From: Bifidobacterium primatium
GTDB taxonomy: Bacteria > Actinomycetota > Actinomycetes > Actinomycetales > Bifidobacteriaceae
Assembly: GCF_002802875.1 (NCBI RefSeq)
Contig: NZ_PEBI01000001.1
Span: 459,830-523,829 of the forward strand
Direction: 5' to 3'
DNA: 64,000 bases
A program made the translations under genes and the position numbers. Shown here piece after piece: positions 2,876 to 44,432 of the stretch. How positions within the stretch are numbered: the first letter of the stretch is position 1; each line of letters opens with the position of its first letter. A model generated the notes under the pieces. That model was not told the origin of the DNA. It was given only the letters and a program-made list of their open reading frames with translations, and searched no databases.

Positions 2876-3530
2876 GCACGGTGATCGTCAGGGGATCGGA
2901 TTTCACGGCCTTGTTGTCGCGCAGGCTCAATACGGCCACGTAGGTGCCGGCCTCCACATGGGGTCGGGAGGCGTCGTCCTGGCAGGTGGAGCCGGTGCGG
3001 TTCGTGTTCCATGTGACGGTCTGGATGTCCTTGTCGTTGCCGTCCATGAGCAGCATGCGCGAGTCGACGTCGCATGAGTCCGATCGCCATACCGTCTCGT
3101 TGCCGGATGTGATGGCCAGCACGCGCGATGCGTTCGACGCGTCGATGAGGCAGGACGTGTTGCCGCTGTGCAGAATCGACGTCTTGAAGTTCACCGTGCC
3201 GCCGACGCCGACGGTCGTATAGTCGGCCGACAGGTTCAGCGTGATGTTGGAGTCGTCGCAGTCGGGCACGCCGGCCGTGGTCCTGGACTTCGTCGTGCCG
3301 TCCGACGACGATTCGGCACCTGACGATTTCGTGCTCTTCGAGGATTTCGACGCCTTCGCGGTCTGTGACTGGGACTGTTCGTCGCCGCCGACCAACGCCT
3401 GCACGCCCCGGACCACGCCGTAGACGAGGCCGCCGAATACGGCAAGAACGGCTATCAGCACGATGACCGCCACGATGCGACGACGACGATAGATACGCTG
3501 CTGCTGTTTGCTGATTCTCCGCTTTGCCAT
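2871..3530 (-). CDS. single-pass membrane protein with extracytoplasmic beta-rich domain, 219 aa
   Basis: No family recognised. A basic N-terminus (MAKRRISKQQQRIYRRRR) precedes one membrane helix at about residues 19-41. A low-complexity Ser/Lys/Thr linker follows at about 53-85. The C-terminal domain of about 125 residues has four spaced cysteines and alternating hydrophobic patterns like an Ig or DUF4232-type beta sandwich. The cysteine pairs suggest disulphides outside the cell. The design (cytoplasmic basic tail, anchor, flexible stalk, beta domain) suggests a surface or cell-wall-sensing protein, but that is inference. Confidence 0.6.
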   Translation of the reverse strand: MAKRRISKQQQRIYRRRRIVAVIVLIAVLAVFGGLVYGVVRGVQALVGGDEQSQSQTAKASKSSKSTKSSGAESSSDGTTKSRTTAGVPDCDDSNITLNLSADYTTVGVGGTVNFKTSILHSGNTSCLIDASNASRVLAITSGNETVWRSDSCDVDSRMLLMDGNDKDIQTVTWNTNRTGSTCQDDASRPHVEAGTYVAVLSLRDNKAVKSDPLTITVQ

Positions 3531-7449: not shown

Positions 7450-7590
7450 GCATCAACTCCCCTCAGTCCGCTTCGCGGACAGCTCCCCTCATTCATGAGG
7501 GGAGCCAACGAGATAATCCGTCTCGGCAGCCCGGCTCCCCTCAAGTTTGAGGGGAGCTGTCAGGCGCAGCCTGACTGAGGGGAGTTGCCC
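7450..7590. repeat. full CTCCCCTCA/TGAGGGGAG intergenic repeat pair
   Basis: Two hairpin units back to back. The first has ACTCCCCTCAGTCCGC...GCGGACAGCTCCCCTCA and then TGAGGGGAGCC. The second has GGCTCCCCTCAAG...TGAGGGGAGCTGTCAGGC and GCCTGACTGAGGGGAGTT. A short spacer containing CGAGAT...CGTCTC separates them. The same architecture recurs at 11825 and 13416. Confidence 0.9.
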
Positions 7591-11824: not shown

Positions 11825-11969
11825 GAATCAACTCCCCTCAGTCAGGCTATGCCTGACAGCTCCCCTCAATCTTGAGGGGAGCCAACGAGATGACCCGTCT
11901 CAGACACCGCTCCCCTCATGATTGAGGGGAGCTGTCCGCGAAGCGGACTGAGGGGAGTTGACCCGCCAC
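11825..11969. repeat. full CTCCCCTCA/TGAGGGGAG repeat pair, right end of DUF559 cassette
   Basis: Same two-hairpin layout as 7450-7590, with spacer CCAACGAGATGACCCGTCTC. The right half, 11909-11969, is the exact direct repeat of 11359-11419. It lies 10 bases after the galK stop in the galK direction and may serve as galK terminator. Confidence 0.9.
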
Positions 11970-22787: not shown

Positions 22788-22851
22788 AACTTGGCCGAAC
22801 CGTTCATAAGGGCCCCATAATCGACGTCCTTATGAACGGTTCGGCCAAGTT
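22788..22851. other. 64-base hairpin with perfect 24-bp stem
   Basis: Left arm 22788-22811 and right arm 22828-22851 are perfect reverse complements (core CCGAACCGTTCATAAGG), with a 16-base loop. It lies 15 bases past the lplA stop (minus strand) and 90 bases before the pyrD start. It could end lplA transcription, but there is no T run and the stem is far longer than in other terminators here. Nearby, GGTCACGAAA is repeated at 22751 and 22772. Confidence 0.85.
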
Positions 22852-39995: not shown

Positions 39996-40159
39996 GCCCT
40001 TATTATCAGACCGCCGTATGACCTTTGCATGTCTATGCGCCGTAAGCAATAGGGTCTTGTGTCGCGGCCACGCTATGAGATGCTTATGTACGTATGTCGT
40101 CGCCCTTGCGGCGACGCCCTTTGTTCCGTCAATCTTCCATGATCCGTTAGGGAGGCACC

Positions 40160-40492
40160 ATGGCCACGCACGAGTTGACCGCCGAGAATTTCGAAACCAC
40201 CGTCAAGGAGCACCCGCTGGTGTTCATCGACTTCTGGGCCACGTGGTGCGGCCCGTGCCGCGCATTCGGCCCGATCTACGAGAAGGCCTCCGAATCCCAT
40301 GACGACGTGTGGTTCACCAAGGTGGACATCGACCAGCAGCAGGGTCTGGCCGAGGCCGCCGGCATCTCCGCGGTGCCGACGCTCATCGTCCTCAAGAACG
40401 GCGAGGTGGTCTTCAAGCAGGCCGGCGCGCTGCGCGCGTCCGATCTGGACACGCTGATCGACAAGGTCAAGGAGGAGACTCCCGCGGCCTGA
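40160..40492 (+). CDS. trxA: thioredoxin
   Basis: A 110-residue thioredoxin fold with the active site FWATWCGPCRAF and the cis-proline in SAVPTLIVLKNGEVV. It reduces protein disulphides in the cytosol using thioredoxin reductase, which is not in the window. TTAGGGAGGCACC precedes the ATG. Monocistronic, with a terminator following. Confidence 0.93.
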   Translation: MATHELTAENFETTVKEHPLVFIDFWATWCGPCRAFGPIYEKASESHDDVWFTKVDIDQQQGLAEAAGISAVPTLIVLKNGEVVFKQAGALRASDLDTLIDKVKEETPAA

Positions 40493-40509
40493 CGGCCATG
40501 ACGATCATC

Positions 40510-40566
40510 CGTCCGACGCGGTCGCGGTCGCGACCGTCGGACGAATCGTCGAAATAATCTTTTTTA
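40510..40566 (+). terminator. terminator after trxA
   Basis: CGTCCGACG and GGTCGCG pair with CGCGACC and GTCGGACG across one bulged C; a run of T residues is at 40560-40565. Confidence 0.7.
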
Positions 40567-40681
40567 TCACATTCGGCGCGTCGTTGTCGCATACGGCGCG
40601 CTGATTTTTTTGCCGCCGTCATCATGGGTCGGTAAGATATGGATGTTGTGTGAGACTCTGTAGGTCTACGTAAGGAGATTC

Positions 40682-41758
40682 ATGGCAAGCCACCGCAAGG
40701 AAAAGGCTTTTATTCTCAAGCGCATCACCCGTCGTCAGTGGATTCGTCTGGGGGCGGGAGCCGCCGCCGCTGCGCTGCTGATCACCGGGGGTTTCGTCTC
40801 CCGTGACTTCTACACGAGCAACACGAACCGTACGAACACGTCGTCCATCACCTCGTATTCCGCCACGAAGAGCGACGAGGTCGACCAGTTCCAGGCCGCG
40901 TCCCGTGGCGACGCCCGCGCCGACATCAAGGCCGGACTGCGTGGCGCCGACGCGAACACGTCCTATGTGAAGGTCGTCATCAACGGCAACTCCCGCGTGG
41001 TGCTCGGCGAGAACTTCACCGATGTCAAGTCCGTGCTCGATCAGGGCAACATCACCCTCGAACCCGACGACTCCGTCTCCCCCAGCCTGACGACCAAGGT
41101 GAACGAGTCCACGGTCATCACCATCGACCGTGCCGGCTCCTCCATCGAGACCGTCGAGAAGGCCATCGCCTTCAACACCGTCGAGAAGAAGACGGACGCG
41201 CTGCCTTCCGGCACCAAGAAGGTGCAGGAGGAAGGCGAGAAGGGCATCATGCAGATGACCAACCTGGTCACCAAGGCCGGCGGCAAGGTCACCTCGTCGA
41301 ACACGCTGAGCGCGTGGGTCAAGAAGGCCCCGAAGTCGAAGGTCATCCTCATCGGCACCGGCAGCACGCAGGCCGATTCCTCGTCTTCGTCCTCATCGTC
41401 CTCCTCCTCGTCGTCGAGCTCCACCGGCTCCTCGAACCTGGGCACCACGGTCCCGGCCAGCGACATGCAGAAATGGGCGCACGACTACCTGCTCGCCAAC
41501 GGCTACAGCGAGGCCGACTTCTCCGCCACCGTGTACATCATCAACCACGAGTCCGGCTGGGATCCGACCGCCACGAACCCGTCCTCCGGCGCATACGGCC
41601 TGCCGCAGGCCCTGCCCGGCAGCAAGATGTCGTCCGCCGGCGCCGACTGGCAGACCAACTACCAGACGCAGCTCAAGTGGTTCCTCAGCTACTGCAACGA
41701 ACGCTACGGCAGCGTGCAGGGCGCCTACAACTACTGGCTCGCCAACCACAACTACTGA
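40682..41758 (+). CDS. secreted G5-domain/transglycosylase-like protein (Rpf/TgdA type), 358 aa
   Basis: Wall-remodelling protein. The N-terminus RRQWIRLGAGAAAAALLITGG is a signal anchor. Next come a DUF348/G5 segment (about 95-235; VKVVINGNSRVV, KVILIGTG), a run of 16 serines at about 238-253, and a C-terminal lysozyme-like domain with catalytic Glu in YIINHESGWDPTATNPSSGA and YGLPQALPG. Such proteins cut glycan strands and in relatives wake dormant cells. TAAGGAGATTC precedes the ATG. Monocistronic. Confidence 0.9.
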   Translation: MASHRKEKAFILKRITRRQWIRLGAGAAAAALLITGGFVSRDFYTSNTNRTNTSSITSYSATKSDEVDQFQAASRGDARADIKAGLRGADANTSYVKVVINGNSRVVLGENFTDVKSVLDQGNITLEPDDSVSPSLTTKVNESTVITIDRAGSSIETVEKAIAFNTVEKKTDALPSGTKKVQEEGEKGIMQMTNLVTKAGGKVTSSNTLSAWVKKAPKSKVILIGTGSTQADSSSSSSSSSSSSSSSTGSSNLGTTVPASDMQKWAHDYLLANGYSEADFSATVYIINHESGWDPTATNPSSGAYGLPQALPGSKMSSAGADWQTNYQTQLKWFLSYCNERYGSVQGAYNYWLANHNY

Positions 41759-41800
41759 TCCGCGAATCCACGCCGATTCACGGATACCGAATCTCCGCAA

Positions 41801-41840
41801 CCGAGGTCCCGGCACTTCCCACGAGGTGCCGGGACCTCGG
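41801..41840 (+). terminator. hairpin after the G5/transglycosylase gene
   Basis: A perfect 15-bp stem, CCGAGGTCCCGGCAC with GTGCCGGGACCTCGG, loop of 10 bases, 43 bases after the stop. No T run. Confidence 0.75.
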
Positions 41841-41923
41841 CGTATATCGGCGGCCTCCCCGTCGACCGATCGCCCTGTTAACCGACCTCGACGTCAACCG
41901 ACCACCCCGTCAATCCAGTCGGA

Positions 41924-42218
41924 TTTGTGGGCCTATCGCGTCATCAAACAGAATCCAATAGGAGCCCAATAGGGGTTTGTGGGTCTAATCGGTCGCCAAA
42001 ATCCAAAAGTGGGTCTATCCGTTCGCGAGGAAGGGATTTTCGGGATCCTCGCGTATGTCCTAGACCCACAAACCTCTTTATGAACGGATTGGCCCACGGT
42101 TATTGAATAGGCCAGACCCACAAATTTTCCTTGTGAACGGTCAGACCCACAAACCCGATTCGGCAGACCCACAAAATGATTGAGTAGACCCACAACATTG
42201 ATGCGATAGACCCACAAA
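41924..42218. repeat. nine-copy TTTGTGGGTCTA array in two opposing arms
   Basis: Leftward-type copies begin at 41924, 41976 and 42006 (the last AAAGTGGGTCTA). Complementary copies (TAGACCCACAAA or CAGACCCACAAA) begin at 42061, 42113, 42142, 42164, 42185 and 42207. Spacings are 52, 30, 55, 52, 29, 22, 21 and 22 bases, mostly near whole helical turns. The arms meet around CGCGAGGA...TCCTCGCG (about 42025-42055). TGAACGG precedes several copies. It lies between two converging genes with no ORF I would accept; 42251-42275 adds a short GATTC-rich palindromic run. Confidence 0.9.
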
Positions 42219-42333
42219 ACCCGACTTGTATTTCTTGGGGCATGGTGCACATTCGATTCGAATCGATTCGATTCGTTTTGCCGCCATGCACTGCGGCCGA
42301 ATACACGAATACACACCGGCCGCATATGCAAAA

Positions 42334-42363
42334 ACTCCTGTCTGCGCGAGGCAGTACAGGAGT
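42334..42363. terminator. stem-loop ACTCCTGT...ACAGGAGT in the pst-distal gap
   Basis: ACTCCTGT (42334-42341) pairs with ACAGGAGT (42356-42363), with inner CTGC/GCAG pairing. About 260 bases beyond the pstB stop, it may end read-through from pst. I see no gene between 42364 and 42620. Confidence 0.45.
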
Positions 42364-42620
42364 CTTGGTATCCCCCATCGGAGAGAAGAAACAGAACGAC
42401 AGGGGAAGAGTCGGTCCGTTGGGGGCCGTGGTCCGTCAGGCGACCGGCGCGTCATTCGGTGTTGCACTCATAGATGAATGACGGGGCCGGAACCTTCGGG
42501 GCCCGCCGTCTCCCTCCGTCACGCCGCGAGGCCGAACGCCGGGCGAACGATGTCGCCGGCGATTCGACGCCGCGTCGTGGCGGACGGGAACGACCGCGGA
42601 CGGTCCCCCAACGGTGAGGA

Positions 42621-43400
42621 TCAGCCGAAGCGGCCGGAGATGTAGCGTTCGGTGTCTTCCTCGTGCGGGTTCTCGAAGATGACCTTGGTCTCGTTCATCT
42701 CGACGAGATGACCGGGCTGGCCGATCTCCTTGAGGTTGAAGAAGGCGGTGTAGTCGGACACACGGGCGGCCTGCTGCATGTTGTGGGTCACGATGACGAT
42801 CGTGTAGTCCTTCTTCAGCTCGTTGATCAGATCCTCGACGGCGAGCGTCGAAATCGGGTCAAGGGCGGAGCAGGGCTCGTCCATGAGCAGCACCTGCGGG
42901 TGCACGGCCACGGCGCGGGCGATGCACAGACGCTGCTGCTGGCCACCGGAGAGGCCGATGCCGGGGTTGTCGAGACGGTCCTTGACCTCGTCCCACAGGT
43001 TGGCGCCACGCAGGGCCCATTCGACGAGCTCGTCGGCGTCCTTCTTGTCGACGGAACGGTTGTTGAGCTTCATGCCGGCGAGCACGTTCTCACGAATGGA
43101 CATCGTGGGGAACGGGTTCGGGCGCTGGAACACCATGCCGACGTCGCGGCGGACGGCGACGGGGTCGACGCCGGGGCCGTAGAGGTTCTTGCCTTCGAGC
43201 AGCACCTCGCCCGTGACGTGGGCGCCGGGGATGATCTCGTGCATGCGGTCGAGGGTGCGCAGCACGGTGGACTTGCCACAGCCGGAGGGGCCGATGAAGG
43301 CGGTGACCTTGTTCGGTTCGATCTTCATGTTGACGTCCTCGACGGCCAGGAAGTCGCCGTAGTAGACGTTCAGATGGTTGACATCAATTCGTTGTCCCAT
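42621..43400 (-). CDS. pstB: phosphate ABC transporter ATP-binding protein
   Basis: ATPase of the high-affinity phosphate importer. Walker [16 protein letters not shown] loop [12 protein letters not shown], signature [14 protein letters not shown], Walker [14 protein letters not shown], and the PstB-specific switch His in [17 protein letters not shown]. 259 residues, standard length. ATAAGGAAAGAAC precedes the ATG. Last gene of pstSCAB; the usual following phoU is absent here. Confidence 0.97.
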
Positions 43401-43439
43401 GTTCTTTCCTTATGTTTTCCAGTGACGGCGATTACTCGA

Positions 43440-44432
43440 TTACTTCTGCGTGCCTTCGACCGAGAACACCTTGGCCACGATGCGGCCGATGATGTTCAGC
43501 AGAAGCACGATGAGGATCAGCACGAGGGCGGCGGCCCATGCACGTTCCATACGGATGCCCGGCAGGCACGGCGGGTTGAGCTTGAGCGCGGCGGGCGTGC
43601 AGGTGGCCAGACCCTGGGAGTATTCGTTGTAGACGTACACCGGCAGCGTCGTCATACGACCGGAGAAGAGGTTGAAGTTGGTGTTGGCGATGAAGCCGGA
43701 GGCGATGAGCAGCGGGGCGGTCTCGCCGATGACTCGCGCGATGGCGAGGATCACGCCGGAGACGATGCCCGGAAGCGCGGTGCGCAGCACGATCTTGGTG
43801 ATGGTGCGCTGCTTGGTGACGCCCAGTGCGTAGGAGCATTCGCGAAGGTCGCTCGGGACGATCTTCAGCATCTCCTCGCTGGTCTTCACCACGGTCGGGA
43901 TCATGAGCAGCGACAACGCCACCGAGCCGACGAAGCCGTTGACGGTGCCGGGGCCGAGCAGGATGGTGAACAGCGAAAAGGCGAACAGACCGGCGACGAT
44001 GGACGGGATGCCGCTCATCACGTCGACCAGCAGGGAGATGGTCTTGGACAGCGGGCCCTTCTGCGCGTATTCCACGAGGTAGACGGCGCACATGAGACCG
44101 ATCGGGATGGAGATGACCATGGCGCCGAACGTGATCTCCACGGTGCCGATGATGGCGTGGAGGATGCCGCCGTACGGGTACATGCCGCCGATGACGCCGA
44201 CCATGTTGTGGCTCAGGAAGTAGCCGTCAAGGCGCTTGTAGCCTTCGGCGAGGCAGGTCCAGAGCACGGAGACGAGCGGGACCAGCGCGATGAGGAACGC
44301 GATGTAGATGAGGACACGCATGGCGATGTCCTTGTACTTGCGCGTCTGGATGGAGGAGCGGCTGGGCTTGAACTTGTCGAAGTCGGGCTGCGGTCCGCGA
44401 TGGAATTCGGGATTGGTTGCTGCGGCGGTCAT
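43440..44432 (-). CDS. pstA: phosphate ABC transporter permease PstA
   Basis: A six-helix inner-membrane subunit. The EAA-type loop contacting PstB appears around ECSYALGVTKQRTITKIVLR, and SIPIGLMCAVYLVEYA and IARVIGETAPLLIASGF are typical PstA segments. It overlaps pstC by one base (ATGA), showing translational coupling. 330 residues. Confidence 0.96.
   Translation of the reverse strand: MTAAATNPEFHRGPQPDFDKFKPSRSSIQTRKYKDIAMRVLIYIAFLIALVPLVSVLWTCLAEGYKRLDGYFLSHNMVGVIGGMYPYGGILHAIIGTVEITFGAMVISIPIGLMCAVYLVEYAQKGPLSKTISLLVDVMSGIPSIVAGLFAFSLFTILLGPGTVNGFVGSVALSLLMIPTVVKTSEEMLKIVPSDLRECSYALGVTKQRTITKIVLRTALPGIVSGVILAIARVIGETAPLLIASGFIANTNFNLFSGRMTTLPVYVYNEYSQGLATCTPAALKLNPPCLPGIRMERAWAAALVLILIVLLLNIIGRIVAKVFSVEGTQK

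Follow-up and report, generated by a model that had tools for sequence, protein, structure and literature searches.

Between two converging genes of Bifidobacterium primatium lies an array of short repeats set in two opposing arms, which raises the question of what so regular a piece of non-coding DNA is for. We analyzed it within a stretch of 64,000 nucleotides (hereafter the window; contig NZ_PEBI01000001.1, positions 459,830 to 523,829) and compared it with other genomes of the family. The original prediction held that a cooperative protein binds one face of the DNA there, as at a replication, segregation or nucleoid-organizing site or a large operator.

Structure of the array

The array is built from a TTTGTGGGTCTR-type 12-mer, with three copies on the plus strand followed by six on the minus strand at spacings of 52, 30, 55, 52, 29, 22, 21 and 22 bp (Table 1); the copy number, the orientations and the spacings had all been predicted correctly. 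Of the nine copies, eight differ from the 12-mer at no more than one position. In the remaining one, at 42006, the first letters are replaced by AAA, which is the consensus at this place in 43 cores of offset 54 (see below). A tenth, degenerate site lies 30 bp past the copy at 42061; its module, a marker of one side of the core, is seen again in other arrays. When up to two mismatches are allowed, the window contains nine matches, eight of them in the array, as compared to a mean of 1.37 and a maximum of 4 in 100 shuffles. The arms had been described as centered on CGCGAGGA/TCCTCGCG. This pair, CGCGAGGA...TCCTCGCG, belongs to a longer, 67-bp palindromic core.

Table 1. Positions of the array, its sites and related features (window coordinates unless a locus is named).
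Feature	Position	Strand	Remark
G5, DUF348, transglycosylase-like domain gene	40682..41758	+	converges on the array; from domain matches
Window array	41924..42218	3 copies +, then 6 copies -	nine-copy TTTGTGGGTCTR-type 12-mer array, B. primatium
Left-arm site TTTGTGGGCCTA	41924..41935	+	1 mismatch to the 12-mer
Left-arm site	41976..41987	+	exact 12-mer
Core-flanking site L1, AAAGTGGGTCTA	42006..42017	+	last nine letters of the 12-mer only
Palindromic core, 67 bp	42006..42072	+	asymmetric center ATTTTCG; window row in the core alignment
Core-flanking site R1	42061..42072	-	exact 12-mer
Degenerate site R2 (+30), GGCCCACGGTTA	42091..42102	-	overlaps module CCCACGGTTATTGAAT (42093-42108)
Right-arm site (+52)	42113..42124	-	1 mismatch
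Right-arm site	42142..42153	-	1 mismatch
Right-arm site	42164..42175	-	1 mismatch
Right-arm site	42185..42196	-	1 mismatch
Right-arm site	42207..42218	-	exact 12-mer
ABC-transporter ATPase gene (PF00005)	42621..43400	-	converges on the array; pstB-like by sequence and neighbors
Type Q core, AACTTGGCCGAACCGTTCATAAGG	22788..22851		24-bp inverted repeat around a 16-bp center; upstream of a dihydroorotate dehydrogenase gene (PF01180)
77-bp Q-core stretches	L298 1976-2052 and 6972-7048 (B. primatium C1, 529-534 kb)	direct	around a GH127 gene
CTCGACGTAC-GTACGCCTTCG-like hairpins	L031 ~3156-3270, L302 ~1720-1960, L081 ~3200-3300		see last section

The array belongs to a dispersed class

In the B. primatium genome (2.70 Mb in 8 contigs), TTTGTGGGTCTR occurs exactly 37 times and its reversed control not at all. 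Allowing one mismatch yields 61 matches (7 for the control), of which 52 fall into 13 clusters of at least two copies and 9 are single. Exact copies were counted in nine Bifidobacterium genomes: 153 in B. pluvialisilvae (G004), 37 in B. primatium (G000), 23 in B. saimiriisciurei (G005), one in G003, and none in the other five, which include G002. When 189 genomes of the family were searched for GTGGGTCTRNNGCATAC, four gave matches: these three array-bearing species and, with one single match, a genome of another genus. The motif is therefore neither scattered evenly nor absent from all close relatives, either of which would have spoken against the original prediction: most of its matches are clustered, and two relatives carry arrays. 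The window array is thus confirmed, and it belongs to a class that extends through the genome. Because the 13 clusters are spread over several contigs, the proposal of one replication or segregation site is not supported.

A phage or plasmid origin was considered and set aside, as the 861-bp region of the array has no match among 50,697 phage and 72,556 plasmid records. Four viral-contig matches and one Bradyrhizobium match to the core patterns contain no exact 12-mer and were taken as chance.

Inward arms and helical phasing

In the B. primatium clusters, the plus copies lie to the left of the minus copies, and the arms thus point inward; some B. pluvialisilvae arrays consist of two such units side by side. 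Same-strand distances in selected genome stretches of the three array-bearing species, the source also of the phasing, gap-setting and core data below, fall into bands of 20-23, 28-33, 40-44, 49-55 and 60-66 bp. The spacings between neighboring TTGTGGGTC copies follow a 10.4-bp period with a phase near zero, which supports the inferred placement of the sites along one helix face. In B. pluvialisilvae the phasing is strong, with an R of 0.69 over 203 spacings and a largest null value of 0.24 (2000 draws of uniform spacings); in B. primatium alone it is only suggestive, as 24 spacings give an R of 0.66, below the null maximum of 0.67.

We also compared eight arrays shared by the sister species B. 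primatium and B. saimiriisciurei. In these, 13 of 212 motif positions and 93 of 721 spacer positions differ (p 0.006), which means that the motif changes at roughly half the rate of the spacers, in a comparison that masks by motif similarity and so favors slower change of the motif. Together with the absence of significant co-variation in the core (see below), this slower change would be in keeping with protein sites on one face.

A polar palindromic core

The core type found in the window array, here called T, measures 66-68 bp. Selected stretches of B. primatium, B. pluvialisilvae and B. saimiriisciurei yielded 64 candidate rows, of which 61 aligned with one consensus after three had been removed by eye as non-cores; two further rows, of offset 53, were taken out before the pairing count on 59 rows. 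A T-type core is present in 12 of the 15 B. primatium stretches scanned. For the 43 rows of offset 54, the consensus reads aAAGTGGGTCtAtccGTTCRCGAGGAnGggRTTTTCGgCgTCCTCRTGTATGYcnYAGACCCACAAA, with RTTTTCG at its center and inner boxes that take two forms, CGTTC and CATAC. The central TTTTC is exact in 37 of the 64 rows and is thus not a feature of all. The core is polar: 21 of 53 placed cores are accompanied, at a distance of up to 45 bp, by a GGTTATTG-type module, and in all 21 it stands on the TTTTC-forward side.

Over 59 rows, the two halves pair slightly more often than in the mean of the shuffles at 11 of the 13 positions (k=2, 45 against 41.1; k=0, 52 against 49.7) and less often at k=5 (25 against 26.8) and k=6 (25 against 27.4). 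For the offset-54 rows, the in-register z values sum to 1.66 (n=43), or to 1.73 for the 20 rows with less than 80% identity, both of which lie inside the range of the slid controls (-6.67 to +2.79). Therefore, the core halves show no significant co-variation. As RNA, the window core folds well, with a strong hairpin possible (z -4.76), while Rfam returned no matches for window positions 40000-44000.

Other core types occupy the same loci

A scan with the core profile revealed a second core type, Q, with a CTTGGYCAA-like outer box, present in the window and in four relatives (G002, G006, B. pluvialisilvae and B. saimiriisciurei). Each Q core consists of an inverted repeat, which is free of mismatches across 24 bp in the window copy but imperfect in other copies. 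With up to two mismatches, the Q half-site pattern has 13 matches in B. primatium, 11 in G002, 13 in B. pluvialisilvae, 5 in B. saimiriisciurei and 18 in G006, several of those in the three array-bearing species being T half-sites; in the remaining 184 of the 189 genomes the count is 0 to 2, as in the control. In selected stretches, we counted 7 cores with both halves of type Q in B. primatium, 8 in G002, 1 each in B. pluvialisilvae and B. saimiriisciurei, and 6 in G006.

Five of the seven B. primatium Q cores (loci A to E) were compared across species. Locus A carries Q also in G002, a third type in G006, and no core in B. saimiriisciurei or B. pluvialisilvae. At locus B, T stands in both B. 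saimiriisciurei and B. pluvialisilvae and the third type in G006, with none seen in G002. Locus C has a T half-site in B. saimiriisciurei and none seen elsewhere. At locus D, Q is present in B. saimiriisciurei and decayed in B. pluvialisilvae and G006, with none seen in G002; at locus E, it is found in B. saimiriisciurei and G002, with a T array in B. pluvialisilvae and the third type in G006. Thus, B. pluvialisilvae has a T array at two of the five loci, one of which holds it in B. saimiriisciurei as well, and one and the same locus can hold Q in one species and T in another. The third type, seen in G006 at loci A, B and E (L331, L340 and L344), has outer boxes that resemble TTGGTCAA or TTGGCAAA, and its inner boxes are CCAAGC/GCTTGG.

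Hybrid cores, in which a Q half faces a T half, were found at L036 in B. primatium and L195 in B. pluvialisilvae. These are the only two counted among 13 automatic T/Q hybrids, as the halves of the rest are ambiguous and resemble GTGGGTC[GA]A; an irregular hybrid at L299 of B. pluvialisilvae was chosen by eye.

The remaining two Q cores of B. primatium lie in 77-bp stretches that differ by one mismatch and flank a GH127 gene in direct orientation. G002 has the GH127 gene at the same place without cores (the best Q half-site on either side has 8 mismatches), and the cores are therefore not needed for the presence of the gene. In B. saimiriisciurei, the flanking genes are ~256 bp apart with neither gene nor core between them, while in B. 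pluvialisilvae they are ~435 bp apart, with a T array between them and the GH127 gene missing.

Gain and loss of arrays

A tree of eight genomes (2,180 columns) groups B. primatium with B. saimiriisciurei (0.978) and G002 with B. pluvialisilvae (0.997), apart from G006 and (G007,(G001,G008)). An array of B. pluvialisilvae is present at 9 of 13 B. primatium loci (L031, L032, L036, L039, L040, L048, L049, pst and leuA) and missing at four (L033, L042, L043 and L046), among which L042 is a single copy in B. primatium. Between B. primatium and B. saimiriisciurei, arrays both shorten and lengthen, and the L036 array, located between jag-like and gidB-like genes, is wholly absent in the latter. Comparison of presence and absence at locus A and at L036 gave no readable target duplication.

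Orthologous gaps of other species hold arrays of other motifs, with spacings of 31/22 in G001 (by eye), 29/23 in G006, 52 in G007 and 31/31 in G008. G002 has four GGGTTATAGGCC-like copies there, two of them exact, facing one inverted copy. A de novo scan detected candidate arrays of many kinds, 27 in 400 kb of G001 and 26 in 371 kb of G054, a genome from another genus of the family.

Genomic setting

Beyond the ABC-transporter ATPase gene next to the window array lie genes for two permeases, a phosphate-binding-like protein, a response regulator and a histidine kinase. The original prediction noted the location beside pstB; this neighborhood seems incidental, because arrays adjoin many unrelated genes. 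The position between converging genes, which it also noted, is borne out (Table 1). Among 43 arrays (12 in B. primatium, 31 in B. pluvialisilvae), 17 lie in convergent, 23 in tandem and 3 in divergent gaps, according to approximate gene calls from a codon-usage script trained on 11 ORFs of the window. Convergent gaps are favored over divergent ones (17 versus 3, p 0.003), but the tandem gaps can hold promoters. This distribution speaks to some extent against a large operator. A promoter and terminator scan of the window array found none, which says little since only 0.4 promoters were expected by chance.

Interpretation

We consider it probable that the array is one of the dispersed copies of a non-coding element with multiple protein-binding sites, which behaves like a non-autonomous repeat. 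A dimeric or larger DNA-binding protein would occupy the palindromic core, one subunit per half-site, where each half-site consists of an outer box GTGGGTCTA and an inner box CGTTCRCGAGGA or CATACAYGAGGA and the halves span the asymmetric center. Further molecules would align along the inward-pointing arm sites on one helix face, giving a compact, polar complex. Gain, loss, lengthening and exchange in place of the elements recall a non-autonomous repeat family of REP/BIME-like or MITE-like habit, for which the gene of the acting protein presumably lies elsewhere. The motif itself differs between related species. The layout, phasing and polarity of the elements, their shared loci, their turnover, the type exchange at fixed loci and the hybrid cores are observed, whereas we infer protein binding, the oligomeric state of the protein and the need for an enzyme in their spread.

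The class resembles several known systems in part. According to the accessible parts of two papers, REP/BIME sequences and REPINs are short, intergenic and present in many copies, with inverted units, mosaic arrays and reported protein binding (PMC2817692, PMC3733652), and a REP unit is a 20-40 bp palindromic repeat with a GTAG or CGTC tag (PMC3733652). A term search of the latter finds no Bifidobacterium, Actinobacteria or actinomycetes. The Bifidobacterium arrays share with the REP/BIME sequences described there the short, intergenic, many-copy habit, the inverted units and the mosaic build; in contrast to them, they have non-palindromic 12-mer arm repeats, helical phasing and a polar 66-68-bp core. 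A RAYT-type REP system is excluded: Y1_Tnp (PF01797), the sole protein family sought, has no match in the three array-bearing species, and among the nine genomes of the genus it occurs only in G003, which holds a single copy of the motif.

Like MITEs, the elements are short, non-coding inverted repeats that are present or absent between close species, and the Q cores recall MITE terminal inverted repeats. Unlike MITEs, they have long arm arrays, and T copies share architecture and motifs but not their whole sequence. Sites of the attP type, as in lambda and L5, have inverted core sites around an asymmetric center and flanking arm-type repeats. The Bifidobacterium core likewise has inverted halves around an asymmetric center in addition to arm sites; however, its elements occur in tens of copies per genome with arms of variable length. 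In sum, the class combines a REP/BIME and MITE habit and an att layout with phased polar arms, and it fails the RAYT test. Among the titles and abstract beginnings listed for repeats, REP, MITE and phased repeats, which mostly leave out subscription papers, we found no description of such a class in Bifidobacterium, and the exact 12-mer appeared in the literature text of one unrelated paper only.

Among the other readings, we think site-specific recombination or transposition somewhat unlikely. Here, a recombinase would bind the two inverted half-sites, arm-type sites would hold the complex, and exchange at the center would leave hybrid cores and type swaps at fixed loci. The core, the inward arms and the polarity are all present, as are the hybrids at L036 and L195 and the less regular one at L299, which give no more than a hint of such exchange, the different types held by loci B and E in different species, and the direct repeats around the GH127 gene. 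Against it, arms with at least ten sites are longer than typical att sites, and G002 has the GH127 gene at the same place without an adjoining core. Nucleoid-organizing or chromosome-anchoring sites, read by a lineage-specific architectural protein of drifting specificity and kept away from promoters by selection, would fit the helical phasing, the dispersion, the shared loci, the slower change of motif letters and the scarcity of divergent settings. We hold this explanation to be unlikely, given that exact copies vary widely among close relatives (37 in B. primatium, 23 in B. saimiriisciurei, 153 in B. pluvialisilvae and 0 in G002) and that arrays come and go quickly.

Loading sites for an FtsK/TraB-like DNA translocase are an improbable alternative. 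The accessible parts of two papers describe chromosomal clt-like clusters of TraB recognition sequences in Streptomyces, including the coelicolor chromosome (PMC5133688, PMC4170104). As in those clusters, a short directional motif is repeated along an actinobacterial chromosome, and the motifs GACCCACA of B. primatium and GACCCAGA of G001 look alike. However, palindromic cores with two-part half-sites and inner boxes, and cores that stand alone without long arms, are absent from the clt descriptions in these parts. An operator or terminator of transcription, or else a structured RNA, is likewise improbable. The RNA fold of the window core and the frequent location of arrays near gene ends speak for it; the distribution of the settings (17 convergent, 23 tandem, 3 divergent), the lack of significant co-variation and of an Rfam match, and the position of the B. 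primatium core at loci A, B and C beyond a GC-rich hairpin that by eye looks like a terminator speak against it. The operator, RAYT-REP and RNA readings are weaker than a recombination site, a nucleoid anchor or a TraB-like loading site.

A wider reading, which we put forward tentatively and regard as possible though doubtful, extends the multi-site protein-binding element to a bifidobacterial superfamily of core-and-arm sites that are polar, phased with the helix and located at fixed intergenic loci. These would be read by a fast-evolving recombinase or architectural protein, with sites and half-sites exchanged in place between specificity types and a site code for each species; the layouts of other motifs in G001, G006, G007 and G008 would then reflect the same machine with other specificities. 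In any case, the data point to a class of regular, non-coding candidate docking sites in a well-studied gut genus, whose turnover between sister species is fast enough to catch type switches at single loci. Should the protein be found, it could reveal a new chromosome-organizing system or a new bifidobacterial system of site-specific exchange, or offer a clear example of a protein that co-evolves with its DNA sites.

Other repeats and an assembly feature

Contig C1 of B. saimiriisciurei (331.8 kb; L095) has the look of an inverted duplicate centered on an array, with 19.9 kb being 99.7% identical to its own reverse complement at sampled positions and with matches to it in mirrored pairs. It is probably an assembly artefact at a palindrome and a possible source of the 9% contamination value of this assembly.

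Several further repeats were observed. G054 contains tandem palindromes with CCTGACCAG/CTGGTCAGG centers at ~53-bp spacing in several gaps (L248, L245, L241, L242 and L246). In a separate element of G001, repeats of the AGTTCTGA type surround a palindromic center at distances of 42 / 84-94 / 42 bp; four copies were seen (L230 14819, L231 15728, L227 2183 and L218 5466). Within the window, two TCCCCTCA clusters lie at 7458-7583 and 11833-11956; they may be relatives of the CTCATCAGTC...AGCTTCCCC palindromes that G001 and G008 carry at leuA. Last, CTCGACGTAC-GTACGCCTTCG-like hairpins form another dispersed repeat, found at several loci in B. primatium, B. pluvialisilvae, B. saimiriisciurei and G002 (Table 1).
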